Shown here one piece after another: positions 7,012 to 44,471 of a stretch of 46,545 bases of DNA. Position 1 is the stretch's first letter; every line of letters starts with the position of its first letter. The stretch comes from a virus, in the IMG/VR virus record IMGVR_UViG_3300027976_000061, positions 1 to 46,545 of that record; one strand, written 5' to 3'. The notes under the pieces are model-generated. The model made no database searches. It was not told the DNA's origin and saw nothing but the letters and a program-made list of their open reading frames with translations. A program made the position numbers and the translations under genes.

Positions 7012-7026
7012 TTCTTATGAATCTAT

Positions 7027-7034
7027 TATAAATA
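7027..7034 (+). promoter_or_regulatory. T4-late-type promoter element TATAAATA
   Basis: TATAAATA ends 18 nt before the ATG at 7053. This equals the T4 late promoter consensus, and the spacing is like that of other copies in the window. T4 homing endonuclease genes are commonly driven by late promoters, so its place ahead of the intein-associated nuclease gene fits. Confidence 0.5.
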
Positions 7035-7052
7035 AAATAAAGATCATAAGTG

Positions 7053-7862: not shown

Positions 7863-7975
7863 GAATTAAATCAATCAATAAAATAGATTATGTAGGTGAT
7901 GTATATAATCTTAGAATAAAATCAGAGGATGGACTTAACCATAATTATATAGCTAATGGAATTAGCGTATCGAAT
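7859..7975 (+). other. Split intein, C-terminal half (IntC)
   Basis: 39 residues starting at ATG and ending SVSN just before the +1 Cys at 7976. Block F is VYNLRIKSEDGLNHNYIAN and block G is NGISVSN. The usual penultimate His of block G is Ser here. Size and order match natural IntC pieces of 35-45 aa. Confidence 0.85.
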
Positions 7976-8695
7976 TGTCACAAGGCACGTGGGCAGTCAA
8001 TTGGAGATATCTTAGCATCATGTGTAAACTGGGAATATAAACTTGGATTATCTGGAACAATGAAAATTGATTTAGAGTATTCTGACTTCTATACAATGCA
8101 AGAAAGAACTGGTCCACTTGTTATGACACTTAGTGCTAAATTCCTAATGGACAATGATTACTCTCCTGATATTAAAATCAAGCAGGTGTTCCTCGAGTAT
8201 GATATGAATGACCCACGAATAGCCGAGTATGTAAAGATACAAACTAACAAGACGTTACGTAAGAAAGTAAAGGATCAATTCAGAGATCCTATGGAATTCG
8301 GTAAACGTATGCTTGAAATAGAGAAGGAAATTATATTTGACTCTAATGAGAGAATCGAATTCATAAGTAGAATTACTAAGAAATTTGGAAAGAACACATT
8401 GATACTATTTTCAGATGTTAAGAATGAGTATGGATTTAGAATTCACAATGCAATAAAAGAATGGAACCCAAATACTTTTTATATTGATGGAGGAGTTGAA
8501 ACCCCAGATCGGGAAGACGCAAAAAATGTGATGGAAGAACCTAGCGCAAAAACAATACTTAGGTTTGCGGATGATATTGAAATTAAAGTTAGTCAATTTA
8601 AGAGAGTTACACTAACTAATAAAAAAGTTAAATTAGCAAAAGATATAACATTAGATGACGATGTTGCTAATTCATGGATAGAGTCTAATAAATAA
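7859..8695 (+). CDS. uvsW: Split-intein C half fused to the middle part of the UvsW-like helicase
   Basis: A 278-aa product. Residues 1-39 are the intein C half; the helicase resumes at Cys40 with CHKARGQSIGDI, completing motif II (VDE+CH). Motif III is LGLSGTM (62-68), followed by the second RecA-like domain with NTLILFSDVKNE (179-190). The helicase homology ends near NVMEE (223-227), just before the segment that holds motifs V and VI. The last 51 residues (8540-8692), containing KRVTLTNKKVKLAKDITLDDD, do not look like helicase and mark the 5' side of a second insertion. Expression follows the nuclease gene through a 4-nt overlap. Confidence 0.82.
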   Translation: MRIKSINKIDYVGDVYNLRIKSEDGLNHNYIANGISVSNCHKARGQSIGDILASCVNWEYKLGLSGTMKIDLEYSDFYTMQERTGPLVMTLSAKFLMDNDYSPDIKIKQVFLEYDMNDPRIAEYVKIQTNKTLRKKVKDQFRDPMEFGKRMLEIEKEIIFDSNERIEFISRITKKFGKNTLILFSDVKNEYGFRIHNAIKEWNPNTFYIDGGVETPDREDAKNVMEEPSAKTILRFADDIEIKVSQFKRVTLTNKKVKLAKDITLDDDVANSWIESNK

Positions 8696-8722
8696 CTAAA
8701 AGCTATTAGGACTGTGACTGAT

Positions 8723-9691
8723 ATGAAAAATAAAATTATAGATATAATGATCACTGAATTAGGAGAACCTGATTCAATTGAGTTTCTAAATGAATATTTA
8801 GATTTTACACTAAATTATGTAAGCACATGTGACGGATATTCAGAAAATCATCATATTCTGCCTAGATCATTATTCAAAGATTATAAGAACGATAGCTGGA
8901 ATATAGTTAATTTATTATATAGTGATCATGTTTTTTCACATGAGTTATTAGCAAACGCATATATAAATAGAGCAACATTACGTCCTTTGAATTTTATGAA
9001 AAGTCAAACATCTAAGAATACTGAATTAATATCTAAAGCTGCTAAGAAAGGATGGATTAAATTAAAGAACAATCCCGTTAAATATAAGAAATTTTGTGAT
9101 GATAGATCTGAGCATATTAAATCATTAAGTAGCATCGAAAGATCTAGGAGATCCCAATTAATGTGGGATAATCTAACTGAATCTCAATATATTGAGCGTT
9201 GCATATCTAATAAGAACAGTTGGACATCTGACCGGAGAAATATTAAAAGTAAACAAATGACTGAATACTTTAAGAATAATCCAAACGAGATGTCAAATCG
9301 ATCTAGTAAAATGTGGGATAATATGAATCCTATAGATAAGCAGCGATTTAATAACACAATGAACATTGTTAATAAAGATCCGATTAAACGAGCAAGTGCT
9401 AGCGAATCAATTAAACAAAAATGGAAGGATCCTGCATTTAGAGAAAATATGAATAATCGAAAGACATCTAATCGTAAGGTAATAGCAATCTCACCATCTG
9501 GAAATATACATGAATTTAACGGATTAGGATTAATGGTTAAGACACATAATTTTAATAGAGGATTGATTAATAAATTTAGAAACTCAGGAAAACCTGTAAT
9601 ATCTAATAATGTAAAAAATAAAGAATCTGTAGCTAATACTATAGGTTGGAAATTTAATTATACTAAATATGGCGAAACCAATTTTTCATAA
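8723..9691 (+). CDS. HNH homing endonuclease with NUMOD repeats
   Basis: A 322-aa protein counted from the ATG at 8723; a GTG at 8714 would add three residues. The HNH core is near residues 40-75: ENHHILPRSLF followed by NIVNLLYSDHVFSHELL. The middle carries repeated short blocks (RRSQLMWDNL, NRSSKMWDNM, SESIKQKWKDPAF) typical of NUMOD3 DNA-binding helices, and the C-terminus (VIAISPSGNIHEFNGLG) looks like a NUMOD1/HTH module. It sits inside the interrupted UvsW reading, between the middle and C-terminal helicase segments. No group I intron core was found around it, so it appears as a free-standing invader or part of an unrecognised intervening element. Confidence 0.78.
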   Translation: MKNKIIDIMITELGEPDSIEFLNEYLDFTLNYVSTCDGYSENHHILPRSLFKDYKNDSWNIVNLLYSDHVFSHELLANAYINRATLRPLNFMKSQTSKNTELISKAAKKGWIKLKNNPVKYKKFCDDRSEHIKSLSSIERSRRSQLMWDNLTESQYIERCISNKNSWTSDRRNIKSKQMTEYFKNNPNEMSNRSSKMWDNMNPIDKQRFNNTMNIVNKDPIKRASASESIKQKWKDPAFRENMNNRKTSNRKVIAISPSGNIHEFNGLGLMVKTHNFNRGLINKFRNSGKPVISNNVKNKESVANTIGWKFNYTKYGETNFS

Positions 9692-9712
9692 AAACATAAC
9701 GGAGGACAAGAA

Positions 9713-9737
9713 CGAGGCAGCTATTATAGTTGCCTCG
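9713..9737. repeat. Hairpin at the third helicase segment
   Basis: CGAGGCA and TGCCTCG form a perfect 7-bp stem around an 11-nt centre that can pair further. It lies in sequence encoding NEAAIIVAS, just before an in-frame TGA (9741-9743). It is unusually GC-rich for this genome. Confidence 0.5.
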
Positions 9738-10017
9738 TATTGACGGAACCTTTGCTACTGGAATTGACTGTAAAAATGTTCATCACATTATATTTGCAGA
9801 ATCAACTAAAGCCGAAATAACTATTAGACAAGCGGTTGGACGTGGAATGAGATTCTTAGTTGGTAAGAACGTCGTAATCATATGGGACATCATCGATGAT
9901 CTAAGTGGATATTCAGTTAAGCATTCAAATGTTAGGCTTGATATTTATAATGATCAGGAGTTTGAAATTTTAAATAGTAAGATTGTTAAACTGGAGGATT
10001 TTACTCCTCCAGTTTAA
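9730..10017 (+). CDS. uvsW: UvsW-like helicase C-terminal segment (motifs V and VI)
   Basis: The open frame encodes GTFATGIDCKNVHHIIF (motif V region) and IRQAVGRGMR (motif VI with the arginine finger), then VVIIWDIIDDLS, which correspond to the end of UvsW. No convincing start exists: TTG at 9730 is the first possible one in frame. Upstream sequence in another frame (ATG at 9669, then ITEDKNEAAIIVASY from about 9696) continues the same homology but meets TGA at 9741; a +1 shift there gives ASY-D-GTFATG. The piece is therefore either joined to the middle segment by an unknown mechanism, read by a frameshift, or inactive. Convergent with phoH, with an 8-nt gap. Confidence 0.7.
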   Translation: MPRIDGTFATGIDCKNVHHIIFAESTKAEITIRQAVGRGMRFLVGKNVVIIWDIIDDLSGYSVKHSNVRLDIYNDQEFEILNSKIVKLEDFTPPV

Positions 10018-11500: not shown

Positions 11501-13063
11501 ATGGAAGATAAGTCAAAATTAATCAAACATTTGTCCCTTAAACAAGGAGCGATCAAGATTTTAATTAATTCGATATACGGAGCATTTGGAAATAAATGGT
11601 TTTATTTTTATAATACGGAAATAGCACAGTCTATTACACTCCAGGGGCAAGACATGATTAAATTCGCAAATAAAGCGATTGACTTTTATTTTAAACATAG
11701 ATGGCATCTAGACACTGAACTTCACCAACATTTAGGAATATCTGATCACGTTATTAATATGATAGATCCTAACATTATTATAGCCATATACACAGATACT
11801 GATTCTACATATGTTAATTTTGAACCAGCGCTTAAATCAATTGAGGGCCTTGATTATACAGAAGATGAAGGCATTAAAATATGTATTGAAATTGATAAGT
11901 TTAGAATTGGAGAATTTTATGATTCTGCTTTTGAAAAATGGTCTAAGATGTTTAATACTGACAATAGGCAGACATTTAAACTTGAACTTATTGCACAAAA
12001 TGCAGTATGGATAAAGAAGAAAAACTATGTGCTCAAGGTATCATATGAACCTAATCCCAAGGAGGAACTATATAATGAGTCTGATAGGTATTTATTAATT
12101 AAAGGATTAGAACCAATTAAAGCGTCATATCCGGAATGGGCAAGAAAACATCAAACTGATTTCATTAAATACTTTCTAGAAAATGGAGTTGACATTGATT
12201 TAGAAAATGATTTGATTCCGCTGATTGAAACAGTAAAGTCTGAATTCCTAACACTACATCCTGACGAATTCTCTCAAAGTTTTAATCTTAGGCAATATGA
12301 TAAGTATATAACAAGTGAGGCAAACTGTGTACTAAAGAAGGGAGCCGCAAATGGCCCAAAGGCAGTAGTTCATCATAATTATCTAATACTTAAGAATAAT
12401 CTAGAAGGAAGATATCCTAGAATACGACAGGGGTCAAAATACAAAATGCTATATTGTAAACCAAACGAATTTGGTATTGACTTATTTGCATATAATCCTG
12501 GTCAATATCCAACTAAGATTATTCCTGAACTAGATTTAGATCAGCAGTTTTTTATTCTAATTGTCGAGCCTATTAATAGAATATTAAAAGCAATCGGTCT
12601 TAATACAATTGACCAAAAATTGAGAAGATCTGTAATATTTAAAACATCAAATACTAATACTCCAATGACACGAGATCAAATGTATCCATATCATGTAATA
12701 TGTGAAGCAACATTAGCACATGAAGAAGTTCCAGAAAAATTCTGGGATATTATTGGAGATCCGGATCAAGATGTATCAGAAGAAGACTTTGATGAATACC
12801 TTCAACTTATAACAAGATACGGGTTAAACACCACATTTATAATTAATAAAAACTTAAAACCGTTTATTAATAGAGTATCAAAAAAGCTTGGAATTGGAGC
12901 GTTTAGTCCAGCTGGAATAATAGCATCGGATCTACTTGCTGTAGAAAGGGAACTTGAAAAAACTAGAAAGTCCGAGGAGAAGCTACAACACGCGATAGCA
13001 AGACAGGCCGATAAACAACAGCGCGCCATTGACCGCGATAACAAAATAGCATCAAATGCATAA
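11501..13063 (+). CDS. 43: DNA polymerase family B, C-terminal half (gp43-like, split)
   Basis: A 520-aa protein that begins just before polymerase motif B. LKQGAIKILINSIYGAFGN (13-31) carries the Kx(6)NSxYG signature, and YTDTDSTYV (97-105) is motif C with the two catalytic aspartates. The thumb region follows and the end is a Lys/Arg/Glu-rich helix. The 3'-5' exonuclease domain and motif A (DxxSLYPS) are missing, and no intein half is visible at the N-terminus. A separate 43A-like gene is therefore expected elsewhere, as in T4-like phages with a split gp43. The ATG at 11501 follows an A-rich leader. The stop overlaps the primase start. Confidence 0.85.
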   Translation: MEDKSKLIKHLSLKQGAIKILINSIYGAFGNKWFYFYNTEIAQSITLQGQDMIKFANKAIDFYFKHRWHLDTELHQHLGISDHVINMIDPNIIIAIYTDTDSTYVNFEPALKSIEGLDYTEDEGIKICIEIDKFRIGEFYDSAFEKWSKMFNTDNRQTFKLELIAQNAVWIKKKNYVLKVSYEPNPKEELYNESDRYLLIKGLEPIKASYPEWARKHQTDFIKYFLENGVDIDLENDLIPLIETVKSEFLTLHPDEFSQSFNLRQYDKYITSEANCVLKKGAANGPKAVVHHNYLILKNNLEGRYPRIRQGSKYKMLYCKPNEFGIDLFAYNPGQYPTKIIPELDLDQQFFILIVEPINRILKAIGLNTIDQKLRRSVIFKTSNTNTPMTRDQMYPYHVICEATLAHEEVPEKFWDIIGDPDQDVSEEDFDEYLQLITRYGLNTTFIINKNLKPFINRVSKKLGIGAFSPAGIIASDLLAVERELEKTRKSEEKLQHAIARQADKQQRAIDRDNKIASNA

Positions 13064-14201
13064 TATTATAGAAACAAAAAATACATATCTAGTTGTTGAT
13101 TTTGTAAATGATGTTCTCAAGAAAACATTTCCAGGGAATAGGTTTAAGCAGTCAATTAATAATGAGGACGATGATAAACTTAACTTTGCATGTCCATACT
13201 GTGGTGATTCACAAACAGATTCCGGAAAAAAGAGAGGTAATTTATATATTAAAACTGCTACTTATAAATGTTTCAATGACGGATGTTTAAAGTTCACAAA
13301 GCTTACTAGATTCATAACAGATTTTGCTGCTAAGTATTCACTACCTATTCCAAATGTATCAAGTGACGCCGGTAATATAAAGGTTGAGACTGGAACAAAA
13401 CGAGGAGCCCTCATAGAATTTCTAATGAACCCTAAGGTAAAAGACATATTAATAAACTTCAAACAACTCGCTGACCGATTCTTCTTAACTCCATGTAAAG
13501 ATGCTCCCATTGATTCTCCTATTGGAATATATGTTAGAGGCAGAAATCTAATGGATCTTCCTGCATTCGAAAAGTCCTGTTATTATGACAATAGAGAAGA
13601 TAAGATGTATATTTTTAATATTGATTATAGATCCGATCGCGTACTTGGTTTATCAATCAGACGAATAAGTGATGATTATCCTGGTCCCAAGTATGATATT
13701 AAGAATTACTCACAGTTTATAAAGAATGGTCTAATTCCTAAATCCGATGAGGCAACAATAGTTAAGATTGATATTATTAATAGTTATTATAACATACTAA
13801 ATATACAATTTAACCTACCAATAATAGTGTTAGAAGGCCAAATAGACGCCATGTTCCTTAGGAATGCAATCGCGACCACTGGCGTAACTAAAAGTAAGAA
13901 TATACTTGGTACCTTAATATCAAAAAAGAATGCACGTATACTCTTCGATAATGATGATGCCGGAAAGAAGGAAACATTCAAATTATTAAAGGAAGGATAT
14001 AAGGTATTTATGTGGTCTAAGCTAATAGGGGATCTACGTAATCAATATCCAAGTGAGCGTAAACAAATTAATAAAATAAAGGATATTAATAACCTTTATA
14101 ACTTTTACATTGCGGTTAATAATAAAATGACATTTGACGAATTTAATGATCTAATAATAGGTTACTTCTCGGAGTCTGAGTTTGATTTATTATTTGTATA
14201 A
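13056..14201 (+). CDS. 61: DNA primase, DnaG/gp61-like
   Basis: A 381-aa primase. A zinc ribbon near the N-terminus uses C46-P-Y-C49 and C72...C77. The TOPRIM domain has IIVLEGQIDAMFL (catalytic Glu about 260) and ILFDNDDAGKKE (DxD about 298). Like gp61 it should make short RNA primers at the fork, with the replicative helicase as partner (not in this window). It overlaps the polymerase gene by 8 nt, suggesting translational coupling and a replication operon. Length is close to T4 gp61 (342 aa). Confidence 0.85.
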   Translation: MHNIIETKNTYLVVDFVNDVLKKTFPGNRFKQSINNEDDDKLNFACPYCGDSQTDSGKKRGNLYIKTATYKCFNDGCLKFTKLTRFITDFAAKYSLPIPNVSSDAGNIKVETGTKRGALIEFLMNPKVKDILINFKQLADRFFLTPCKDAPIDSPIGIYVRGRNLMDLPAFEKSCYYDNREDKMYIFNIDYRSDRVLGLSIRRISDDYPGPKYDIKNYSQFIKNGLIPKSDEATIVKIDIINSYYNILNIQFNLPIIVLEGQIDAMFLRNAIATTGVTKSKNILGTLISKKNARILFDNDDAGKKETFKLLKEGYKVFMWSKLIGDLRNQYPSERKQINKIKDINNLYNFYIAVNNKMTFDEFNDLIIGYFSESEFDLLFV

Positions 14202-14204
14202 TGT

Positions 14205-14220
14205 AATAAATAATAAAAAG
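14205..14220 (+). promoter_or_regulatory. Late-promoter-like AATAAATAATAAAAAG
   Basis: This variant of TATAAATA lies 10 nt before the ATG at 14231. The same string with TATAAATA in front occurs before the 1118-aa gene on the minus strand (34585-34600 region), so the extended AT pattern recurs. It may overlap the leader rather than being a promoter. Confidence 0.35.
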
Positions 14221-14230
14221 TTTAATTAAA

Positions 14231-14542
14231 ATGAAGAATTTAAGTTTATCATTCGCAGCATTCAATGCCAAACAAATATACGAAAACGCTGAAACTCCGA
14301 TCGATATGGATGAAACTATCCTAGATAAATTAGTAGAGCTAGTTGGATCCGAAGAGGATGTTGAAGAATGTGCAAAAGAAGCATTTGAAGAACTAAACGC
14401 ATCATTTGAGAAAAATGAAGTAGAATTCAAAGAAGGAGAATCTGGAGAAAATCTTGCTATATCAGCATTAATACTTAAGCTTGTCGAAAAGGGAAAGCTT
14501 GGACCACAGGAAGCCGATTCATTCTTAGAAGATAGAGACTAA
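14231..14542 (+). CDS. Small acidic hypothetical protein
   Basis: A 103-aa, strongly acidic, probably helical protein (MDETILDKLVELVGSEEDVEE and on). The N-terminus MKNLSLSFAAFNAKQIYENAE is basic and aromatic followed by an x-x-E, a weak fit to the capsid-targeting pattern. No family is recognised. It stands between primase and the gp4-like gene and is followed by a hairpin terminator. A scaffold-like or internal head role is possible from its acidity and location, but this is only inference. Confidence 0.55.
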   Translation: MKNLSLSFAAFNAKQIYENAETPIDMDETILDKLVELVGSEEDVEECAKEAFEELNASFEKNEVEFKEGESGENLAISALILKLVEKGKLGPQEADSFLEDRD

Positions 14543-15808: not shown

Positions 15809-17509
15809 ATGGCAGGATTTGGAGACAATAGAAGTGGAGGTACAAGTACCGCACTATCAAACTTAAGTAAATTTGGAACTCGATACGAGGATCTATTACT
15901 TAAGAATTCAAAAGCAATAGGATTCATCGAAAGTCAATTGGCATCGAGAACTCAAAGTAACGGAAATAATGAGTTGTTAAAATTCTCAATGGCGCTAGCG
16001 GATACTACGTCGCAATTAAGAACTAAAGCGATAGCATTCTTTCAGTTGGATTACTCAGTTAAGCGAGAAAGGTTAAGAGATATTGCATCTAATGGTGAAA
16101 TAGAATTTATCCTAGATACGATAGCCGATGATATGGTTGTATATAGTGATGAAAATAGATTTTGTCACGCTAATGATCTTACTGGTAAAATTATGTTTCA
16201 GGGTTCTAATAAAACCGAGAGATTAAATTATCAAGATAATATTGTTAAAAAGTATCAATCTACCTTCGAGGAAATGTATAACACATGGGGGTTTGCTGAA
16301 GGTATAGCAGCTTGGCAATATTCATATCAATTTCTTATAGAAGGTCATTTAAGTTTTGAAATAATTTATGACAATCCTGAAAAACCTAAAAAGATAATCG
16401 GTTTCAAAGAATTAGATCCAGCATCAATTGCACCCCAATTAAACAAAGATGCCAAGGGGAAAATGTATTTACAGTGGACTCAGTATGATCCGTCTACTGG
16501 AGGAACTAGGACATTATCTGATTCACAGGTTATTTACATATCATATGCTAATCACTTTAAAACAAAGAGAATATCATTTGTTGAACGTTTAATTAGGTCA
16601 TTTAACCTATTAAGAGTACTAGAACATAGTAAAGTAATATGGCATGTTATGAATGCACCAATTAGATTACAGACGAAAGTTCCAACCGGATCTAAATCTT
16701 TTCAAAAGGCACAAGAAGATGTTAAGGAATTTATGAATCTTTTAAAAGAGGATGTATTTTTCAATGGAGATACCGGAGAATTAACAGTAGACGGTAAACC
16801 TAATATATTATTCTATAAGAATTATGTTACTCCTGTTAATGATAGAGGAGAAGGAATATCAATCGAAGCATTATCATATCCCGGTCCGAATTTATCAAAT
16901 TCTGAATTACTTGGATATTTCACTAAGAAGTTGAAAATGGATTCTAAGATTCCGTATTCTAGATGGGAAGGTCAATCTGGAATGGGAGCATTTACATTAA
17001 ATGCTGAAGGTATTACTAGAGAGGAAGTTCGATATCAAAAGTTTATTAAAAGATTACGTTCTGCCTTCTCTGAATTAATGGTAAAACCATGGCACCTTCA
17101 AATGTGCTTAGATTTTCCATCACTAAAGGATGATTATAAGTTCAAAAATGCTATCGGAATAAATTATCACAACGATAATGTTTTCGAAGAAATGAAAGAG
17201 AATGAATTAGAAGCTAAACGTATTGCATCATTCACTGCTAAGAAAGGAGTACTTAGAGACGATGGCACACCTTACTTCTCCACTGAATATTTAATTAGGA
17301 AAGAACTTAGGATGACTAACGATGAAATTGAAGCTAATAAAAAATGGTTTGAAATGGAACAGGATGTAATAATCAAAGGAAATGAAGCAGCTGCTGCTGG
17401 GATGGCGGCAACTGGTGGAGCTGCTCCGATGGCTACTGCGGGAGAGGCCGAAGGGGGTGGCGGAGAAACAATCGAAGGCGGAGAAACCGGAGCAGCTGGT
17501 AGTCTATAA
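15809..17509 (+). CDS. 20: Portal protein, gp20-like
   Basis: A 566-aa portal protein. Typical gp20 traits are the helical N-terminal stem, the segment GFKELDPASIAPQ, the conserved YPGPNLSNSELLGYFTKKL, SRWEG before the EEVRYQKFIKRLRSAFSELMVKP crown helix, and YHNDNVFEEMKENELEAKRI near the C-terminus. It forms the dodecameric DNA gate at the packaging vertex. The last 45 residues are Ala/Gly/Glu-rich and low-complexity, an addition to the core. It ends ahead of a palindromic terminator. T4 gp20 is 524 aa, so the length fits. Confidence 0.9.
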   Translation: MAGFGDNRSGGTSTALSNLSKFGTRYEDLLLKNSKAIGFIESQLASRTQSNGNNELLKFSMALADTTSQLRTKAIAFFQLDYSVKRERLRDIASNGEIEFILDTIADDMVVYSDENRFCHANDLTGKIMFQGSNKTERLNYQDNIVKKYQSTFEEMYNTWGFAEGIAAWQYSYQFLIEGHLSFEIIYDNPEKPKKIIGFKELDPASIAPQLNKDAKGKMYLQWTQYDPSTGGTRTLSDSQVIYISYANHFKTKRISFVERLIRSFNLLRVLEHSKVIWHVMNAPIRLQTKVPTGSKSFQKAQEDVKEFMNLLKEDVFFNGDTGELTVDGKPNILFYKNYVTPVNDRGEGISIEALSYPGPNLSNSELLGYFTKKLKMDSKIPYSRWEGQSGMGAFTLNAEGITREEVRYQKFIKRLRSAFSELMVKPWHLQMCLDFPSLKDDYKFKNAIGINYHNDNVFEEMKENELEAKRIASFTAKKGVLRDDGTPYFSTEYLIRKELRMTNDEIEANKKWFEMEQDVIIKGNEAAAAGMAATGGAAPMATAGEAEGGGGETIEGGETGAAGSL

Positions 17510-30869: not shown

Positions 30870-31225
30870 TAAGCTAATCCCTTTTTAGACGCTTTCTTGT
30901 TCATCACCATAACTGCTTCCTTTAATTCAGAGCTCCAATCAGATAATTTAATAAATCCATCTTGCCAAGGTATTCCATTTTTAAGTTCTTCAAATCCACT
31001 GTGGCTTTTAATATCGGAAGTAGCATTTCTGATATCCTCTTTAATTACATCATAGCTTTCTTGATCAACAGGATTAGCACTATTAATCATGCTAATTAAA
31101 TCCTTAAGCATCGCGATTAATTCAGCCTCTGGCGTATTTCCTTCTCCGTATAATCTAAACGGTCTGTCGTCATCATTCTCATTAACTTTATTAAATTCTT
31201 TAAAACCTCTTATAACTTTATTCAT
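30869..31225 (-). CDS. Small protein with prohead-type leader
   Basis: A 118-aa protein. Its N-terminus NKVIRGFKEFNKVNENDD fits the leader pattern with cleavage after VNE (residue 16). The body is helical and mostly acidic (LIAMLKDLISMINSANPVD). It overlaps the 31218 gene by 8 nt and the 30354 gene by 1 nt. Function unknown. Confidence 0.6.
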   Translation of the reverse strand: MNKVIRGFKEFNKVNENDDDRPFRLYGEGNTPEAELIAMLKDLISMINSANPVDQESYDVIKEDIRNATSDIKSHSGFEELKNGIPWQDGFIKLSDWSSELKEAVMVMNKKASKKGLA

Positions 31226-34200
31226 CTTTATTTGACTTTTTTAATGCTTCTAAATATGTAATTGAATCTTGAATATTATCTATCATCTTCTTAGAATCCA
31301 CTTTTAATTGTTCTATTGTTTTACCTCTTGATCTTCTTGTATATCGTTCCCGATCTGATGCCGATGCATTTGTCATACTTCTAAATATTTTAACAAAACC
31401 ATCTTCGCGTCGTCTGGTACCAACTATTATACTGTCAATTACTTTATCTGTATATAGATTTGATCCTTCAAATAATATTTTAAAATATCTAGCAGCTTCA
31501 GTATTTGAACATCCCTTTTCCTTAAATCTATCAAGAATAGCTTCTCGTGCAGCTTGTGCTCCATTTGAATTCTTTATTTCAGTAGCTAATAATCTATCAA
31601 CTGTAGAATCTCTTCTAAAATCTTCTCCAACAAAGGAAGCAATGTTTGCTCTCTTCTCAGTTCTCATTATGATGTCAACGGCTGCTGTTCCTAGGCTACT
31701 ACCATCTCCTCCATGTACTTGTTTATAGAACGGAGTTACATCTTTAATTAATTCAGCCTCACTTGGAATAGCTGCGATTATTTGAGCTTGGTCATTCTTT
31801 GGAATTCCAAAATAATCTAAGTATGTTACTAGTTCACTTCCCATGTCTGATTTAATATCAGCATCGTCTTTTCTATGAGCGTGCGTTACTTGTCCAGATG
31901 TGTCTACTGTTATTCCAATTAGGTGCATTTGATCAGACGTAGGTTTAGTATAATCAAAGAATACATATTGTACACTTCCATTATTGTTATTATTAACATA
32001 TGAATAGAACATTCCATGACCTCCTGGATATCTAGATGGTAGTAAGCACCATGATGTTGATGCACATACCATTCCGAGAGTCTCTGGTGATCTAAATACC
32101 GATAGCAGTTTATCCTTATCTTCCCATATTACGCTTGCACCTGGATCATTATTTTCAATCTTTGTTATAATCTCGCTAAGATCTGATCCAAGTCCATCAA
32201 TTTTATTATTTAAACCATCTCTAATTTCTTCTAGTGATTTAAATTTACTAAGTTTCCTTTTAAATCCATTAACTTCTCTGCCGCTGGGATCAGCGTTTGC
32301 TAATTCCGCAGCTGCACTTATTATTTCCATTTGTAATTCAGGATCTGCGTCCTGAAACGCTTGTTTTTGATTAAATGGAACTACATTCGGTATAGTTATT
32401 CCTCTATAATCTCTAGTTCCGGCGTTATTAGTAAATGCTTTAACTATCCATCTCCCGATTGCTCTTGATTTCAATGATGTAAGATCATCTATTAATATCT
32501 CATATCCAGGACGGTCTCCGGATTCAGGTTTCAACGCTGCGTATTCGTCGACGGTTCTAGGTAATTCTCTAATAACCGATTTTAACTGTTGGTCGGTTAA
32601 CATATTAAGAATAGATGTTAGAATATTAATACTTGCACCTTGTTCCATATTGAATTTCAAAAATGGAACTGCATATCCTGGTAAATTATATTGCTCTATT
32701 AACGATCTAATGCTAATCCATTCTGGATCACTTTCTAATCTAAGTTTCTCTGCATCCGTTAATTTATATGAGTCAAAGCCCGCGGCTTCAGCTTTAAGCT
32801 TAATGAAATATTGCTTAGCTGTGCTTATGTTCTCGTTTACAGATATCTCCACTTTTTTTTTAAATTGATTAAACGAACTAATATGAGAATATTTAGACTC
32901 ATTAATTTTTTTAATCAATTTAATCCTAAGAGATTCTTTTAAGTATGACGCTAATCTTCTTACTTCTTCCATATCTCTTGCATCTAATGCATCATCAATG
33001 AGATTTTGTAATTCAGAATTAGACATTGCTTTAAATGATTCATCGTCGCTGATAACGGGCGAAGGCGAAGATCGACCATAGTCGTCTACTTCGAAGTCCT
33101 CTTCCTCATCGTCTTCATAAGAAGAAATACCGTCGGCTTCCCATTCTTTAATTTCTTCGACTACTTCATCAATTAAATCTTGAGCTTTTCCTATAGATGA
33201 GTCATCTTCCATTAGAATAAGTCTAATTAATTCAAGGAATTCAGCTGCTGGTAATGCAATCAACTTGCCATAAAAATGTTCTTTAAGATTATCGATTTCA
33301 TCGCTTTCTCTGAAATTTGATATAAATGTATTTAAATCTTCTGCAATATATGGTCCATATCTTAAATCTTCTAATTCTCCTGCTAGGTTATCAGTATTCA
33401 TGATAACTACTTGAGCTATTGCCTCATCTTCAGGTATTCCTATTGAAGTAATAAGTTGATATATACCCTTAACCGTTTCATGAATTAACATTGCAAAATC
33501 TAATCCTCGTGCTTTGATAACCGGATTAACCTCGTTAAATAATTCTTCAACATCGGCTGCGTTGTCCAAGATATCATCTCCTGTTTCTAAGCTAGCGATA
33601 ATATCTTCTGCTGATTTAGTTTCTTCTTCTTCAACTTTGTCTTCCTCCCAATCAACTGATACGGTTCCCGCAAATCCATCTTTAGATGCCCACATTCCCT
33701 TTTGTCTATCAATTGGAATAGCCCAATCAAAGAAAGCAGCAATATTTGTAATATCAGATAGTAAACTAATCATAGTTGCACCATCATCATCTCCAAATAT
33801 ATCCTTAAGTCCATCTGCTATAAATGGCATGTTTAATATAAGCTTGGTATTTTTAGCCTCTCCTTGTGTAATATTATTCGTGATCTTTCGTTTTTGTATT
33901 TCCTTTATTATAATAGGATCTGTAATTCTTTCTTGTTCAGCTGGTGGTTCCATCTCAACCTCTTCCATCTCATCCTTCATTTCCTCTTCTTCTGGAAACT
34001 TAATATCTAACTTAACTCCATTTAAAATCGAGCCATACATTTCTCTTATTGATGCTTCGGCTAGCTCTTCTAATTCGCGTTCTTTACCCGCCTGTAATTG
34101 TTTAACTTGATTAACTAATTCCATGAATTGATTAATCTTATTTCCATATCGAGTTTGAGTACTCTGCATTGATGATTGAGCCCTATTCTCAATACCACTT

Positions 34201-34574
34201 AGATATTTATCTTGATCATCTCCTTCAGCTTCTCCTGGCATTCCCGGATTACCTTCTAATGATGCTTCATAAATATATTGAGCAAATCCCTTAACTATTT
34301 GAGATTCATCCATTTTGTATTTACTTGCTAATAATTCTAAGTTAAATTCAATAACTCCACCTGCTGACTTAAGTTCAGTAATAAATCTGTCATATATATC
34401 TTCTGCGGATGCCATCGGCTTAGGTTTAACGCTAGGTTTATCTCGTCTAATTGGTGATGGTCCTCTCCTAACAGGAGTCTTAGTAGGTGATGGAGTCTTA
34501 GTCGGCGCAGGTTTAGTTCCTGGATCAGCCATGAATGCTTCATCTATCCGTTTAATATATTTACGTTTAATCAT
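31218..34574 (-). CDS. Large 1118-aa probable virion/ejection polyprotein with prohead-type leader
   Basis: The largest protein in the window. The leader KRKYIKRIDEAFM is predicted to be cut after IDE (residue 12). Residues 16-55 are Pro/Lys/Arg/Ser/Thr-rich. Residues about 60-540 are helical and acidic. An internal leader-like block has KLIKKINESKYS (cut after E559) and FKKKVEISVNENIS (cut after E581), so processing may split the chain. Residues about 820-905 contain CASTSWCLLPSRYPGG, a Ser-Trp-Cys domain seen in other phage proteins, followed by YVFFDYTKPTSDQMHLIGI. A TATAAATA element lies upstream. Likely internal or ejected protein; enzymatic role unknown. Confidence 0.6.
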   Translation of the reverse strand: MIKRKYIKRIDEAFMADPGTKPAPTKTPSPTKTPVRRGPSPIRRDKPSVKPKPMASAEDIYDRFITELKSAGGVIEFNLELLASKYKMDESQIVKGFAQYIYEASLEGNPGMPGEAEGDDQDKYLSGIENRAQSSMQSTQTRYGNKINQFMELVNQVKQLQAGKERELEELAEASIREMYGSILNGVKLDIKFPEEEEMKDEMEEVEMEPPAEQERITDPIIIKEIQKRKITNNITQGEAKNTKLILNMPFIADGLKDIFGDDDGATMISLLSDITNIAAFFDWAIPIDRQKGMWASKDGFAGTVSVDWEEDKVEEEETKSAEDIIASLETGDDILDNAADVEELFNEVNPVIKARGLDFAMLIHETVKGIYQLITSIGIPEDEAIAQVVIMNTDNLAGELEDLRYGPYIAEDLNTFISNFRESDEIDNLKEHFYGKLIALPAAEFLELIRLILMEDDSSIGKAQDLIDEVVEEIKEWEADGISSYEDDEEEDFEVDDYGRSSPSPVISDDESFKAMSNSELQNLIDDALDARDMEEVRRLASYLKESLRIKLIKKINESKYSHISSFNQFKKKVEISVNENISTAKQYFIKLKAEAAGFDSYKLTDAEKLRLESDPEWISIRSLIEQYNLPGYAVPFLKFNMEQGASINILTSILNMLTDQQLKSVIRELPRTVDEYAALKPESGDRPGYEILIDDLTSLKSRAIGRWIVKAFTNNAGTRDYRGITIPNVVPFNQKQAFQDADPELQMEIISAAAELANADPSGREVNGFKRKLSKFKSLEEIRDGLNNKIDGLGSDLSEIITKIENNDPGASVIWEDKDKLLSVFRSPETLGMVCASTSWCLLPSRYPGGHGMFYSYVNNNNNGSVQYVFFDYTKPTSDQMHLIGITVDTSGQVTHAHRKDDADIKSDMGSELVTYLDYFGIPKNDQAQIIAAIPSEAELIKDVTPFYKQVHGGDGSSLGTAAVDIIMRTEKRANIASFVGEDFRRDSTVDRLLATEIKNSNGAQAAREAILDRFKEKGCSNTEAARYFKILFEGSNLYTDKVIDSIIVGTRRREDGFVKIFRSMTNASASDRERYTRRSRGKTIEQLKVDSKKMIDNIQDSITYLEALKKSNKDE

Positions 34575-36092: not shown

Positions 36093-38183
36093 TTATATTT
36101 TAAAATCATGTAGTATTTCCTGGAACATTGTAATAAATGGTCTAATTGCTAACGCATTTTCTCTGTATTGCTGGCCGCCATCTCTTTTAAACTTGATTGC
36201 GTCACCCATAACAGTCTTAGCTAATTGACTGATTGCCTGAGATGAATCGTGCACTTGTTTAACATGTGATCCAACCTCGCCACTGTCAATTTTCCTATCT
36301 TCAACTAAATCCAGGCAGTATGCTGTCCAATTTAAATATTGTTTTGTCTTCATGTTGCTACCCATTCCTTCTATTGCTGATAATATTAAGCTTAAAATCT
36401 TTTCTCTCTCGGAAGTATTTACCGGTGGTATATTAAGAAGTGGCCTAACTCTACTAGTAGATTTATCCTTAAATATGTTTTCTATCTTTTCATTAATCGT
36501 ACCGTCTGCGTCACTATGTCTTGCTAGAATTTTAACATAACTCATAAAATCATCTGCTGCTGATTTACCAACAACATCACCTAATTCCATTGCCGCTATT
36601 TTTGAATCTCGTTTATCTGCTAATAAGTAAGGTAATGCGTCTACTCCATTCATTCTAGTATCTCTATCTGAATCTTCAGGTAATTGACTTTGATATTTAT
36701 CCTGAGATAAGAACATATCATATATAGTTCCCCAAGCGGCTGCCCAGTTTCTAGGTGTTGGAAATCCAACCGATACTCCTTCTCCTCCTGCACTTAGTTT
36801 AGCTTTATCATATCTATAAAACTGATTGAATTCAGTTTTTATTGGATCTCCTTCTAAATCAAAATATTCAGGATTACCCTTACCTGATTCAGTATGTTTG
36901 ATGTATGCAAAAAATTCATTCGGCACGTAAAATTCTTTTACTGGTTTACTTTCTCCTTCTGGAAAAAAGAATCCTTTATCACTTCTTGCCCATTTTATCC
37001 AGTCCGATATTGTTGGAACTAAATGTACATGTCCTCCTAAGAATCTAGATGCAACTGCTGCTTCCAATGGCTTAACCGGTCCGTCCATTTCTCTATTACC
37101 AGCTGCCCATATTCTCCATCCGGCTGGCATATTATATTTACCACCTGCTGCTTCTCTATCTAATAGTAATGTAAGTGAAGCGGCTAACATATCTGGATCT
37201 GCTCTGTTGATCTCATCAAAGAATAAAATACCTTCTTCTGTATCTTGTACTCCTGGTAACCAACCTGGAATAGTAGATCCCTGTTGAACTTTACCTTTCA
37301 TCGAATCTGGAAATACCATTTTTGTTGTACCTTCTCCTCCGGCAGATGCATCAAATAGTAAAGGAACTCCTCCTAGGTCAGTTGGCATCATCTGTGATAA
37401 CGTAACAATCATTACTGGTAAATTGCTAACTCCATTAGCTGCTGCTATTTTACGTGCAGCCTGCTTAACAATTTGAGTTTTACCTATACCAGGTGCTCCC
37501 CAGATCATAACGTTTTTTCTAGATCTCATGTTGTAATTCCTTACTAATTTATCAATTAACATATCTGGAGTATATACATTCACTTCATCTTTTGTACTTG
37601 ATCGAGGTGGTCCTAATGTGAATTCATCACCATTTTGTTCGTATATTCTATTAATGTACTTAAGTTTTTTACTCTCAGCCATTGCATATTCTGGTTCTAA
37701 CTCTAATTCGTGATTGACATTATCATATTCTTCATCTTCAATGTATTGTCCGTCATTGTAATCGCCACTAAGCATTTCTGGGAAAAAACTTTCAATTATT
37801 TCTTCATGTAATGGATCTTCCCATTCCGTTAACCATGATGGTTTCATTCCTAGTCTAATTGCTTTGTTTGAATTTATTCTCCATGCTCCTTTTCCAATAT
37901 ACCAGTCTCCATCCTTTCTAAGTTTACCCTGATCTAATGCTTCACGTTTCTTCCAAGCATCTTGCCATGCTGAAAGAGCAGCTGCTCCTCTTGTTAATAT
38001 GCTATTTAAGTTAGATGATGCTTTAGACTCAGATGATTTAGTTCTAAGTTCTGCTAAATAAGTCTCAGCTAATTCAGGCGATCCATCGTGTACTATATAT
38101 AAACCGTCATCTGTTTCACTTGAAACCTGTTCATTTAATGATATTGATTCTCTCCTAAAGTTTTTATAATTACTAATATGCAT
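36093..38183 (-). CDS. MoxR-family AAA+ ATPase with prohead-type leader
   Basis: A 696-aa AAA+ protein. The leader has NYKNFRRESISLNEQVS (cut predicted after LNE, residue 18), and a second leader-like block AESKKLKYINRIYEQNG ends IYE near residue 182. The AAA core follows: Walker A GAPGIGKT (229-236), Walker B ILFFDEI (319-325), sensor-1-like WAAGN, and an arginine finger region AVASRF (about 376-381). MoxR ATPases act as chaperones with VWA proteins. Here the next two genes are a VWA protein and a zinc-metallopeptidase, so a three-part complex is likely. First 180 residues are unassigned. Confidence 0.85.
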   Translation of the reverse strand: MHISNYKNFRRESISLNEQVSSETDDGLYIVHDGSPELAETYLAELRTKSSESKASSNLNSILTRGAAALSAWQDAWKKREALDQGKLRKDGDWYIGKGAWRINSNKAIRLGMKPSWLTEWEDPLHEEIIESFFPEMLSGDYNDGQYIEDEEYDNVNHELELEPEYAMAESKKLKYINRIYEQNGDEFTLGPPRSSTKDEVNVYTPDMLIDKLVRNYNMRSRKNVMIWGAPGIGKTQIVKQAARKIAAANGVSNLPVMIVTLSQMMPTDLGGVPLLFDASAGGEGTTKMVFPDSMKGKVQQGSTIPGWLPGVQDTEEGILFFDEINRADPDMLAASLTLLLDREAAGGKYNMPAGWRIWAAGNREMDGPVKPLEAAVASRFLGGHVHLVPTISDWIKWARSDKGFFFPEGESKPVKEFYVPNEFFAYIKHTESGKGNPEYFDLEGDPIKTEFNQFYRYDKAKLSAGGEGVSVGFPTPRNWAAAWGTIYDMFLSQDKYQSQLPEDSDRDTRMNGVDALPYLLADKRDSKIAAMELGDVVGKSAADDFMSYVKILARHSDADGTINEKIENIFKDKSTSRVRPLLNIPPVNTSEREKILSLILSAIEGMGSNMKTKQYLNWTAYCLDLVEDRKIDSGEVGSHVKQVHDSSQAISQLAKTVMGDAIKFKRDGGQQYRENALAIRPFITMFQEILHDFKI

Positions 38184-38208
38184 ATTAATGTAGTTTTATT
38201 TTTATTAT

Positions 38209-39372
38209 TTATTTAAAGAATTTATCTGAATCTAGGAAAATCGGAATTTTCTCTCCTGGAAAAAGATCAACTATTTCATTATAACTATTAACACTCAGTC
38301 CCCTAGATGGGAATATAATCCCAAATATAGTATTATTTGGATCTAATACATCAGATGAAAGTTTCTGAGTTTCTCCGCTCTTATGATCTTGTATCATTCC
38401 ATCTGTTAAATGGATCGTGAACTTTTTAATCCATCCCTTCTTCTTCATTAATCTATATACTGAATTTACATCGTTTCCTCCACCTACCCAGTTGTCATTA
38501 AGGTCCTTTAATATAGTAGGAAATGTTTTAGATGTTACATTTTTATATGTTTGATGATAATATGCGGTGCTTGTCCATAATATCATATTGAGTTTCTTAA
38601 TCTTAGCTGCTTCTAGTGCACGCTGTACCTCTGTCATTATAATTAATAACTCAGCATAGCTTAAACTTGAACTTGTATCAATTATAAGATTTGTTTCAGG
38701 CAGTGTATCTTTGGCGATGGTTTTACTTGTTATTCTATTTCTCATCATTTTGTTACCAACAAAACTTCTATGATATGGCTTTCTACTTGCCATTTCATTC
38801 GAATAAGCTGATAATCGTGTTGAGAACAATTTTGCCCAATCAGTTTTAGATTTTCCCTCCATTACTAATCTATCTCTAAATCCTCCAGCGGAACTACCAC
38901 CTGTACCTTTCTCATCGTCGGTTTTTGATTCTCTTCCTCTAGGTTGCATTTGAATAACTTCACGATTTGCTTGTTCAATAGCTGCTTCTATTTCTCCATA
39001 TGTTCGATTTTCCTGCTCATCTGCGATATCCCCATTTACACCGGGTATTTCTCCTTCGCCATCAACTAGCTCTCCAGGTTCTCCATCACCATCTCCTCCA
39101 CTCTGTCCCTTATTCCACTCATCTGCATTTCCCAATTGTTCGCGCATTCGTTTGATATAATCGTCTGCTAATCTTTCATCTCTACGCAATGTTGTGTTTC
39201 CGGGGCCAGCATTTGGATCTGGTGTAGGTTCAGTCGCGCTCGGTGATGAATTAGATTGAGGATCTTCTCCTTGTCCTAATGATGATTCAGGCGAAACGTT
39301 AGTACTCGATCCTTTGCTCTTGTCTGATTCTTTATTAACACGACTTAATCTATTTACTTTTGATGTTCTCAT
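38209..39372 (-). CDS. VWA-like domain protein (DUF2201-type C-terminal half)
   Basis: A 387-aa protein. Residues about 20-165 are disordered and low-complexity, rich in Ser, Gly, Asp and Pro. The C-terminal domain has the MIDAS-like IIDTSSSLSYAEL (DxSxS), GGGNDV, and IHLTDGMI, as in VWA domains that partner MoxR ATPases. The leader RTSKVNRLSRVNKESDK ends VNKE and only weakly fits the targeting pattern. In bacteria the metallopeptidase and VWA halves of DUF2201 are usually one chain; here they are adjacent genes with a 3-nt gap. Partner of the MoxR protein. Confidence 0.75.
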   Translation of the reverse strand: MRTSKVNRLSRVNKESDKSKGSSTNVSPESSLGQGEDPQSNSSPSATEPTPDPNAGPGNTTLRRDERLADDYIKRMREQLGNADEWNKGQSGGDGDGEPGELVDGEGEIPGVNGDIADEQENRTYGEIEAAIEQANREVIQMQPRGRESKTDDEKGTGGSSAGGFRDRLVMEGKSKTDWAKLFSTRLSAYSNEMASRKPYHRSFVGNKMMRNRITSKTIAKDTLPETNLIIDTSSSLSYAELLIIMTEVQRALEAAKIKKLNMILWTSTAYYHQTYKNVTSKTFPTILKDLNDNWVGGGNDVNSVYRLMKKKGWIKKFTIHLTDGMIQDHKSGETQKLSSDVLDPNNTIFGIIFPSRGLSVNSYNEIVDLFPGEKIPIFLDSDKFFK

Positions 39373-39375
39373 TGT

Positions 39376-40485
39376 TTATATGTTATTTAGCCAATTACTT
39401 TCTCCGTATAATTCAATACGTGCTTCTGAATCACTAATGGGATCCCATTGAACATCATCTCCTGCTACATTAGTAACTCGACCATATTCTCCAGTATCAT
39501 TATCTTTAATTATATCTCCAGATTTTAGGGGTCTGTCTTCATCTCCGTTATCACCATCATCTCCGTTATCTTCCGATCCTTCATCTCCGTTATCTTCTGA
39601 TCCTTCATCTCCGTTATCACCATCATCTCCGTTATCTTCCGATCCTTCATCTCCGTTATCTTCTGATCCTTCATCATCTCCTGTTTCTTCTTCTTCTTCT
39701 TCTTCTTCTTCGCCTCTCTCTTCTCTAATTTGATTTTCCATATCTCGAAATAATTTCCAAAATATTCTGTCCGACGTACTATTTTCAAAAAACTCTACAT
39801 CTTCAGCTGGTACGAAATGTCCTTCGTATAAATCAACACCGCCTGGCATTAATACAATTTTAGTTTCTGCACGTAATATTCTATTGATTTCATAATCTTG
39901 AGCAAGATTCCATAGCGTAAATATTTGTTGTTGTGATAGATAATCTGATTGAATATCTTTTCTAGTTCTGCTGAAATGTTTTAATGAATTATGTAATATC
40001 TCATGTATGATTACAAAGGTAGCATAATCACTATACCATCTTGTGCCTTTGATAGTAGCAGCAAGTGCTCCTCTTTTCTTCTGATCATCTGTTATTTCAG
40101 AAGCAAAATTCCTTTTACCTTCTTCATATGATATAATAACGAACCTGGGATCATAATATATAGCAGATCCGCTAGTTGACATTGTTCCAATTCCATCTTG
40201 TGATTTAGATCCTGCTCCAAATACTGGAACGGGTGGCATTATATTAAGATATGGTTTGAACCATTCAAAATGTTTCACTATCTTAAGTTTAGCAAGCTGC
40301 ATAATTTTTTCAGATTTAGCAAGAGCCTCTGCATTACTAAGTGCGATTGCCGCCGATCTAATTGGATCACTACTCGAAGTTGTATTATTTTGCTCATTCA
40401 TACGAAGCCATAGTCCAAATCTCAATACATCAGTATCTATCTTTTCTTGTAGCTTAATATATTGGTCGAATTTTAAAGTATCCAT
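39376..40485 (-). CDS. Putative zinc metallopeptidase (DUF2201 N-terminal type) with acidic repeats and prohead-type leader
   Basis: A 369-aa protein. Its leader DTLKFDQYIKLQEKID could be cut after LQE (residue 14), and WLRMNEQNN offers a second site (residue 31). The catalytic HEILH sits in FVIIHEILHNSLKHFS (about residues 157-172), followed by NLAQDYEINRIL, which supplies the third metal ligand region in this family. Residues about 255-320 are acidic repeats of GSEDNGDE units. The last 45 aa (KSGDIIKDNDTGEYGRVTNV) look like a small SH3-like beta domain. Partner of the VWA and MoxR proteins. Confidence 0.75.
   Translation of the reverse strand: MDTLKFDQYIKLQEKIDTDVLRFGLWLRMNEQNNTTSSSDPIRSAAIALSNAEALAKSEKIMQLAKLKIVKHFEWFKPYLNIMPPVPVFGAGSKSQDGIGTMSTSGSAIYYDPRFVIISYEEGKRNFASEITDDQKKRGALAATIKGTRWYSDYATFVIIHEILHNSLKHFSRTRKDIQSDYLSQQQIFTLWNLAQDYEINRILRAETKIVLMPGGVDLYEGHFVPAEDVEFFENSTSDRIFWKLFRDMENQIREERGEEEEEEEEETGDDEGSEDNGDEGSEDNGDDGDNGDEGSEDNGDEGSEDNGDDGDNGDEDRPLKSGDIIKDNDTGEYGRVTNVAGDDVQWDPISDSEARIELYGESNWLNNI
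39541..39672 (-). repeat. 66-bp perfect tandem duplication
   Basis: Two identical adjacent 66-bp copies (39541-39606 and 39607-39672) encode a 22-residue acidic unit of the metallopeptidase. Perfect identity suggests recent expansion. Confidence 0.92.
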
Positions 40486-40498
40486 TGAATAATTATGT

Positions 40499-40506
40499 TA
40501 TTTATA
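40499..40506 (-). promoter_or_regulatory. T4-late-type promoter element TATAAATA
   Basis: Exact TATAAATA on the minus strand, 13 nt before the ATG at 40485, at the head of the metallopeptidase-VWA-MoxR operon. Confidence 0.5.
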
Positions 40507-42371: not shown

Positions 42372-44471
42372 ATGAAAGATGACAAATACTCAATTAGATC
42401 TGAATTTGATGAATCAGGTGATGACTACAGTGATTCAGATGAACATGGATCAGGATCATTAAAATCAAAGTCTACAAGTAAATCAAAAACTCCAGTATTA
42501 GATAATTACGGAAGAGATTTAACTGAGTTAGCGGAAAAAAATATGATAGATCCTATTGTTGGGCGTCATTCTGAAATTGAACGCGTATCTCAGATTTTAT
42601 CAAGACGAAAGAAAAATAACCCAATTCTAATAGGTGAGCCAGGTGTAGGAAAATCGGCGATAGCTGATGGCCTAGCATTAAGAATCGTACAAAGGAAAGT
42701 CGCTAGAACCCTATTTGGCAAAAGGGTTATATCTTTAGATCTAGCATCAATGGTTGCTGGTACTAAATATAGAGGACAGTTTGAAGAAAGAATGAGAGCG
42801 GTTATGAACGAATTAGAGAAATCTAAGGATATTATATTATTCATAGATGAGATTCATACTATTATTGGAGCAGGAGGAGCATCGGGTTCGCTTGATGCAT
42901 CTAATATGTTCAAACCTGCATTAGCTAGAGGAGAAATACAAGTAATCGGTGCAACAACACTGGATGAGTACCGCCAATATATTGAAAAAGATGGCGCACT
43001 TGCTAGACGGTTTCAAAAGGTTCTGATAGAACCTACATCAATTAGTGAAACTATTGAGCTTCTATCAAATATTAAATCACGATATGAGGATCATCATTTT
43101 GTTTCATATACAGATAAAGCAATCGAAGCATGCGTAAAATTAACTGAGAGATATATGTCAGATCGATACTTACCCGATAAAGCAATTGATGCGCTAGATG
43201 AAGTTGGATCTAGAGTTCATATTACTAATATTAATGTTCCTAAGAATATTGTAGACCTAGAAGAAGCAATTGAAAAGATAAGTGCTAAGAAAAGTATTGT
43301 TATAAAGGCTCAGCAATATGAAAAAGCAGCTAGTCTAAGAGATGATGAACGATCATTAGCTGAAGAACTACAATATGCACAAGATATATGGGAAGCTGAG
43401 ACTAGAAAAAATAAAATTGAAGTAACTGAGGCACACGTTGCTGAAGTAGTATCAATGGTGACTGGTATACCGTTACAAAAAGTTTCAGAAACAGAATCCG
43501 GTAAACTTATTAATCTTGGAGAATCCATTAAGAAAAGTGTTATTGGTCAAGATGAAGCAGTAGCAAAAGTAGTTAAAGCAATCCAACGAAATAGAGCGGG
43601 ATTAAAGGATCCGAACAAACCAATTGGTTCATTCTTTTTCCTTGGTAAAACCGGAGTTGGCAAAACTCAATTGGCTAAAGTATTAGCTAAGACATTATTT
43701 GATTCAGAAGAAGCAATTATTAGGATTGATATGTCTGAATATATGGAGAAGTTTTCTATATCTAAATTAGCAGGAGCCCCTCCTGGATATATTGGATATG
43801 AAGAAGGCGGCCAATTAACAGAACAAGTACGACGCAAGCCATATTCAATTATATTATTAGATGAAATTGAAAAAGCACACCCAGACGTATTCAATTTACT
43901 TTTACAAGTATTAGACGATGGTCACATGACTGATAGTCTAGGACGCAAGATAGATTTTAAAAATACTATTATTATAATGACTTCTAATATTGGAGCAAGA
44001 CAATTACAGGATTTTGGAACAGGTATTGGATTTGGAACAACTGCGCGCGAATCTCAAGAAGAAACAATCGCATCATCTGTTATTGATAAAGCATTAAAGA
44101 AAGCGTTTGCACCAGAGTTTTTAAATAGAGTTGATGACATGGTTGTATTTAATTCACTAAAGAAAGAACATATACATCAAATTATTGATATCGAGCTTGC
44201 TAAGTTATATGGTAGAATTAATGAATTGGGATACAAGGTTGAAATGACAGCAACTGCTAAGGATTTTATTGCAGATAAAGGATACGACTCAAGGTATGGT
44301 GCAAGACCATTAGGTAGAGCTATTCAGAAAAATATAGAGGATCCATTAGCTGAAGAGATTATAAATTCTCACTTAGCGGAAGGTGATACGATTAAAATAG
44401 GACTTGATAAGAAGGAAAATAAAATAAGCATCAAAATCAAGAAGGCTAAAATAACTAAACCTGGTAAGTAA
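42372..44471 (+). CDS. clpC: ClpC-like AAA+ unfoldase lacking the N-terminal domain
   Basis: A 699-aa protein with two AAA+ modules. Module 1: DPIVGRHSEIERVSQIL, Walker A GEPGVGKS (88-95), Walker B ILFIDEI. A short middle domain (about 300-350) follows. Module 2: Walker A GKTGVGKT (from about 424), Walker B ILLDEIEKAHPDV and the pore loop GYIGYEEGG. GIGF at 551-554 keeps the IGF-type ClpP-binding loop. The first 45 residues are a Ser/Asp/Lys linker in place of the usual N-domain. Sequence is very close in style to Bacteroidota ClpC. It probably feeds host or phage proteins to host ClpP. Confidence 0.92.
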   Translation: MKDDKYSIRSEFDESGDDYSDSDEHGSGSLKSKSTSKSKTPVLDNYGRDLTELAEKNMIDPIVGRHSEIERVSQILSRRKKNNPILIGEPGVGKSAIADGLALRIVQRKVARTLFGKRVISLDLASMVAGTKYRGQFEERMRAVMNELEKSKDIILFIDEIHTIIGAGGASGSLDASNMFKPALARGEIQVIGATTLDEYRQYIEKDGALARRFQKVLIEPTSISETIELLSNIKSRYEDHHFVSYTDKAIEACVKLTERYMSDRYLPDKAIDALDEVGSRVHITNINVPKNIVDLEEAIEKISAKKSIVIKAQQYEKAASLRDDERSLAEELQYAQDIWEAETRKNKIEVTEAHVAEVVSMVTGIPLQKVSETESGKLINLGESIKKSVIGQDEAVAKVVKAIQRNRAGLKDPNKPIGSFFFLGKTGVGKTQLAKVLAKTLFDSEEAIIRIDMSEYMEKFSISKLAGAPPGYIGYEEGGQLTEQVRRKPYSIILLDEIEKAHPDVFNLLLQVLDDGHMTDSLGRKIDFKNTIIIMTSNIGARQLQDFGTGIGFGTTARESQEETIASSVIDKALKKAFAPEFLNRVDDMVVFNSLKKEHIHQIIDIELAKLYGRINELGYKVEMTATAKDFIADKGYDSRYGARPLGRAIQKNIEDPLAEEIINSHLAEGDTIKIGLDKKENKISIKIKKAKITKPGK

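Follow-up and report, generated by a model that had tools for sequence, protein, structure and literature searches.

Where does a MoxR ATPase that is encoded beside a VWA protein and a metallopeptidase act in a huge phage: in the infected cell, inside the prohead, or in the next host after delivery with the DNA? The window (the whole 46.5-kb virus record analysed here, a fragment of a huge phage) raises this question with three minus-strand ORFs in the order metallopeptidase-VWA-MoxR, spaced by 3 nt (metallopeptidase/VWA) and 25 nt (VWA/MoxR). The first (39376-40485, minus strand; 369 aa) encodes a metallopeptidase-like protein with a DUF2201_N domain (PF13203, E 6e-12) and an HExxH motif, HEILH, at 39991-40005 (minus strand). 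A fold search with its structural model (pLDDT 66) returned no PDB match. A low-complexity acidic linker precedes its C-terminal SH3/KOW-like domain (39403-39537, minus strand; residues ~317-361, pLDDT 81-95), and a small domain of this type is found in most split metallopeptidases, with a KOW match in one member. The VWA protein (38209-39372, minus strand; 387 aa) carries the MIDAS sequence DTSSS; its own Pfam search gave no match, 23 of the 24 aligned members match DUF2201 VWA-like (PF09967), and the AlphaFold model of the window protein matches VWA/I-domain structures (E 1e-6 to 1e-4), among them the MIDAS domain of midasin. The third ORF (36093-38183, minus strand; 696 aa, AAA core ~37041-37514) encodes a long-form MoxR AAA+ ATPase that matches AAA_5 above the cut-off (E 7e-10) and phrog_1297 (E 5e-40). 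Walker A (GAPGIGKT), Walker B (ILFFDE) and the sensor 1 asparagine (AAGNR) are kept in alignment A8, and the VWA partner gene characteristic of the MoxR type lies in the same operon (38209-39372). The operon is thus a MoxR-VWA-metallopeptidase module, as the earlier note had proposed from HEILH, the DxSxS of the VWA protein and the Walker motifs. Its remark that the metallopeptidase and VWA halves are split also holds: phrog_1314, a family of one-chain metallopeptidase-VWA proteins, is divided over two window ORFs, its N half falling on the metallopeptidase, and the same two-ORF arrangement occurs with 22 other distinct split metallopeptidases. The "HNH endonuclease" label of PHROG 1314 is regarded as a misannotation, as the members examined carry both HExxH and a VWA MIDAS, and they match DUF2201.

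The module itself is already known, and it is the putative packaging tag on it that is new and that held up when tested; the earlier note had spoken of a new phage strategy, which overstates the case given the module of N4-like and jumbo phages (PMC7824862) and the virion MoxR of an archaeal virus (PMC4124505). Iyer et al. 2021 described, in jumbo phages (group 2.2), a MoxR with a vWA cofactor bearing an N-terminal metallopeptidase, and proposed a role in virion assembly or processing; these are large phages, as here, but the pair has one metallopeptidase-vWA chain where the window has two, and leaders are not mentioned in the portion of that paper considered here (PMC7824862). A MoxR gene beside a one-chain metallopeptidase-VWA gene is present in a Vibrio phage, the N4-like roseophage DSS3phi2, Sinorhizobium phage Phosso and many IMG/VR contigs. 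The N4 gp24-like ATPase and its neighbour (DSS3phi2 gp20/gp22) share with the window a homologous MoxR and a nearby DUF2201-VWA protein; in N4-like phages, however, the MoxR is short and leaderless and the DUF2201-VWA protein is fused. In Acidianus two-tailed virus (ATV), MoxR p618 is a major virion component that acts in virion morphogenesis and, with the VWA protein p892, makes up a viral MoxR-VWA pair (PMC4124505), but this is an archaeal virus with extracellular tail development, without the metallopeptidase or a T4-type leader. E. coli RavA-ViaA likewise joins a MoxR ATPase to a VWA cofactor, but is cellular and has neither metallopeptidase nor leader.

The start of a late-promoter-like element, TATAAATA (40499-40506, minus strand), lies 21 nt ahead of the operon's first ATG. 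Over the whole window this octamer shows no excess (11 copies against 15.4 expected); what is informative for a promoter is position relative to start codons rather than overall frequency. In the portal-related loci (991 genes), ATAAATA lies 11-30 nt before starts 232 times in sense orientation versus 17 times in antisense. The element is credible because ATAAATA is so strongly positioned in this phage group, and by analogy with T4 late promoters the operon is likely to be expressed late, together with the virion genes.

The window encodes a T4-type portal (15809-17509), whose nearest named relatives belong to uncultured 462-735-kb phages, Lak phages and Tenacibaculum phages. Of the portal-related contigs searched, nine out of 11 encode a Peptidase_S77 prohead protease, as does LR756500.1, a 462-kb relative; no such gene was seen in the 46.5-kb window, itself a fragment. 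No module was found in the portal-related contigs, which are fragments and were searched without a positive control. The Peptidase_S77 domain lies in exceptionally long frames (~660-700 codons) in the contigs of L172-L181, which are portal relatives, and in L199, L202 and L226, which suggests fusion to another domain. Tandem double T4-type portal domains occur in IMGVR_UViG_3300032331_003609 (145612-148452), 3300008110_010000 (110896-113787) and 3300008113_000215 (4-2448); the two copies are separate ORFs in two of these contigs and share a single 1119-codon frame in the third. In the window, a ClpA/ClpB-like double AAA+ ATPase (phrog_4871) is encoded near the MoxR operon on the opposite strand (42372-44471, plus strand). 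A UvsW-like helicase gene is in pieces (5860-10017, plus strand): an intein N-half with Hint and Intein_splicing matches ends 5860-7011, the start of 7859-8695 resembles an intein C-half, 9730-10017 resembles Helicase_C, and the gaps hold endonuclease-like ORFs, TnsA-like (7050-7862) and HNH/homing (8714-9691). The region has the look of a fractured gene that carries split inteins. The family B DNA polymerase gene may also be split, as only the C-terminal part is matched by the ORF at 11501-13063 (plus strand; phrog_262 positions 501-843 of 856).

Do the module's proteins carry a head-targeting signal? In T4, IPIII is loaded via its first 10 residues, with residues 4 and 7 important for targeting and 8 and 10 for processing (PMC9026906). 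We defined a strict motif, [FYW]xx[FYW][ILV]xE near the N-terminus, and a relaxed one, an aromatic dyad plus hydrophobic-x-E. Capsid-targeting-like leaders matching the relaxed motif begin the MoxR (MHISNYKNFRRESISLNE/Q; 38130-38183, minus strand) and the metallopeptidase (MDTLKFDQYIKLQE/K; 40444-40485, minus strand). As in T4 IPII and IPIII, the N-terminal aromatic residues are three apart (YKNF in MoxR, FDQY in the metallopeptidase, equivalent to T4 positions 4 and 7) and are followed by hydrophobic-x-E. The T4 internal proteins are small, whereas in the window the motif is found on an AAA+ ATPase and on a metallopeptidase-like protein, and its dyad-to-E spacing is longer: [ILV]xE does not directly follow the dyad, as it does in the strict IPIII-type form, and a few residues intervene before LNE and LQE. 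The "good prohead-type leaders" of the earlier note are therefore present on both proteins, but as relaxed matches that fail the strict form. Within the window, the strand bias of the relaxed motif is not significant (p 0.13; [ILV]NE alone, p 0.015), and the window alone is therefore insufficient to establish the tag. A 1118-aa late-strand protein (31218-34574, minus strand) begins MIKRKYIKRIDEAF and has internal leader-like stretches, KINESKYSHISSFNQFKKKVEISVNEN; it is possibly a fusion cleaved by the prohead protease.

Among 63 T4 genes tested, the strict motif picked out exactly IPII and IPIII. It occurs on 84 of 1023 genes in loci around window-related portals versus two of 958 in short-MoxR phage loci, and in LR756500.1 on 19 of 527 genes versus one of 1059 internal methionines, taken as control. 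At least 18 LR756500.1 genes share near-identical leaders of the MKYIKEYEEFLLE type on proteins that are otherwise different. Together with the strict-motif counts, these leaders indicate that the tag is modular and real in the window's phage group. The tagged LR756500.1 proteins are mostly orphan or leucine-rich-repeat proteins (for example 13446-14282, 331856-332545 and 313382-317720), and on sequence grounds they form a candidate set of head-packaged cargo.

To follow the leaders in relatives of the module, an alignment query was needed, since an IMG/VR search with the window MoxR as a single protein gave no match; the alignment-based search yielded 79 loci, a few overlapping earlier loci. 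Two MoxR forms were distinguished by the P-loop, which lies mostly near residue 30 in the short form and at 137-246 in the long form. Leaders, strict or relaxed, were found on 31 of 39 distinct long MoxRs of metagenomic huge phages and strict ones on 16 of 39 (shuffled expectation 3.1 and 0.17), but on none of 101 short MoxRs and none of their 76 fused partners, counts that come from related sequences and thus show a contrast rather than independent trials. The metallopeptidase chains beside long MoxRs follow the same pattern, with a leader in at least 24 of 35 (11 of 13 fused metallopeptidase-VWA chains and at least 13 of 22 split metallopeptidases), and split VWAs have none (0/26). The window agrees, with relaxed leaders on its MoxR and metallopeptidase and a VWA without one. 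The survey of related phages called for earlier thus bore out co-occurrence: long MoxRs recur with metallopeptidase and VWA, and with the leaders. A midpoint-rooted tree places the window MoxR beside the long forms, on a branch that is both deep and long; its tag may therefore be either shared or convergent. In 37 of the 39 long MoxRs, a second E/[AGDS] site lies just before the AAA core (shuffled expectation 12.4) and could be a second cleavage site; the short stretch between the two E sites looks amphipathic by eye (for example GFFSDLGRKVSAWAKNLY).

Several contigs have two modules (for example L186+L198, L187+L207 and L188+L201), in the orders MoxR-metallopeptidase-VWA and metallopeptidase-VWA-MoxR. 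Peptidase_S77 prohead proteases are also encoded in tagged-MoxR contigs, including L185, L199, L202, L204, L213, L216 and L226; most related contigs are fragments, in which a missing gene is uninformative. A rule by which presence of the prohead protease would imply a tagged MoxR is contradicted by several T4-type contigs with an untagged short MoxR. HExxH is gone in one related group (L087 and L220-L229, which resemble it) that retains MoxR and the leaders. Peptidase activity may be dispensable there, and because of this loss it cannot be assumed for the family.

We propose that the huge phage makes a MoxR-VWA-metallopeptidase remodelling machine late in infection, and that T4-IPIII-like N-terminal leaders would carry the MoxR and the metallopeptidase into the prohead, where a T4-type prohead protease would then cut them off. 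The untagged VWA protein would most likely be carried in through binding to one of the tagged partners. From the mature head, where it would remain, the machine would enter the next host with the DNA and remodel or disable host complexes before phage gene expression. This proposal builds on the domain identities, the operon, the conserved leaders and their match to T4, the prohead protease genes of relatives and the positioned promoter motif; as a whole, we consider it somewhat better than an even bet. Its parts differ in strength. Head loading and processing are likely, given the leader pattern and the T4-type prohead protease of many related contigs, and we hold packaging of the MoxR and the metallopeptidase in the head to be highly probable; the MoxR in the ATV virion (PMC4124505) speaks for it as well. 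Injection with the DNA is plausible and, if the proteins are packaged, probable: T4 leaders load and deliver foreign proteins, including beta-galactosidase (PMC9026906).

The main rival to injection is a role in the prohead interior, in which the MoxR and the metallopeptidase would fold, mature or clear head proteins in the core and then be degraded or left inert, with no part in the next host. The assembly or processing role that Iyer et al. put forward points this way (PMC7824862), as do the morphogenetic function of ATV p618 (PMC4124505) and the late-promoter-like element upstream of the operon. T4 gp22, gp23 and gp24 are annotated as cleaved by the same protease and, since these scaffold and shell proteins are cut without being injected, a leader alone does not mean injection. 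We nevertheless regard a purely prohead-interior role as unlikely: the module is leaderless in phages outside the group, which suggests cytoplasmic work, and the LR756500.1 tag falls mostly on orphan and leucine-rich-repeat proteins, resembling variable cargo rather than conserved scaffold. Could the machine instead be purely cytoplasmic, acting only after synthesis, presumably as in N4-like phages, with the N-terminal motifs arising by chance or serving another purpose? The window leaders are relaxed matches, the named MoxR phages examined have short forms without a leader, and the MoxR of cyanophage S-CREM1, a weak negative control, is not mentioned as one of its 14 reported virion proteins (PMC9964418). 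But across diverse huge phages the tag is on the same two polypeptides and never on the third, with 31 MoxR leaders where shuffling gives 3.1, and this second alternative appears decidedly improbable.

Delivery of the leader-loaded machine with the DNA is favoured because other phages have the module untagged, presumably at work in the cell, and because the LR756500.1 tag marks cargo-like proteins. Among cultured phages no relative with a tag was seen, those named and examined having a short MoxR without a leader, so no published proteome tests packaging directly, and the sources searched yielded no proteome of a tagged phage. On a broader scale, we tentatively suggest, at just short of even confidence, that an AAA+ chaperone/metallopeptidase machine is delivered into the host by huge phages with T4-type heads, within a large, modular set of tagged cargo (~20-30 proteins in one genome), and remodels host complexes before phage transcription. 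The MoxR-metallopeptidase-VWA module occurs widely among phages, and the packaging tag, if true, would place it in the head and make its role testable. With the same leader, a whole set of candidate head-packaged proteins can be read from nothing but the sequence of phages never grown in culture.
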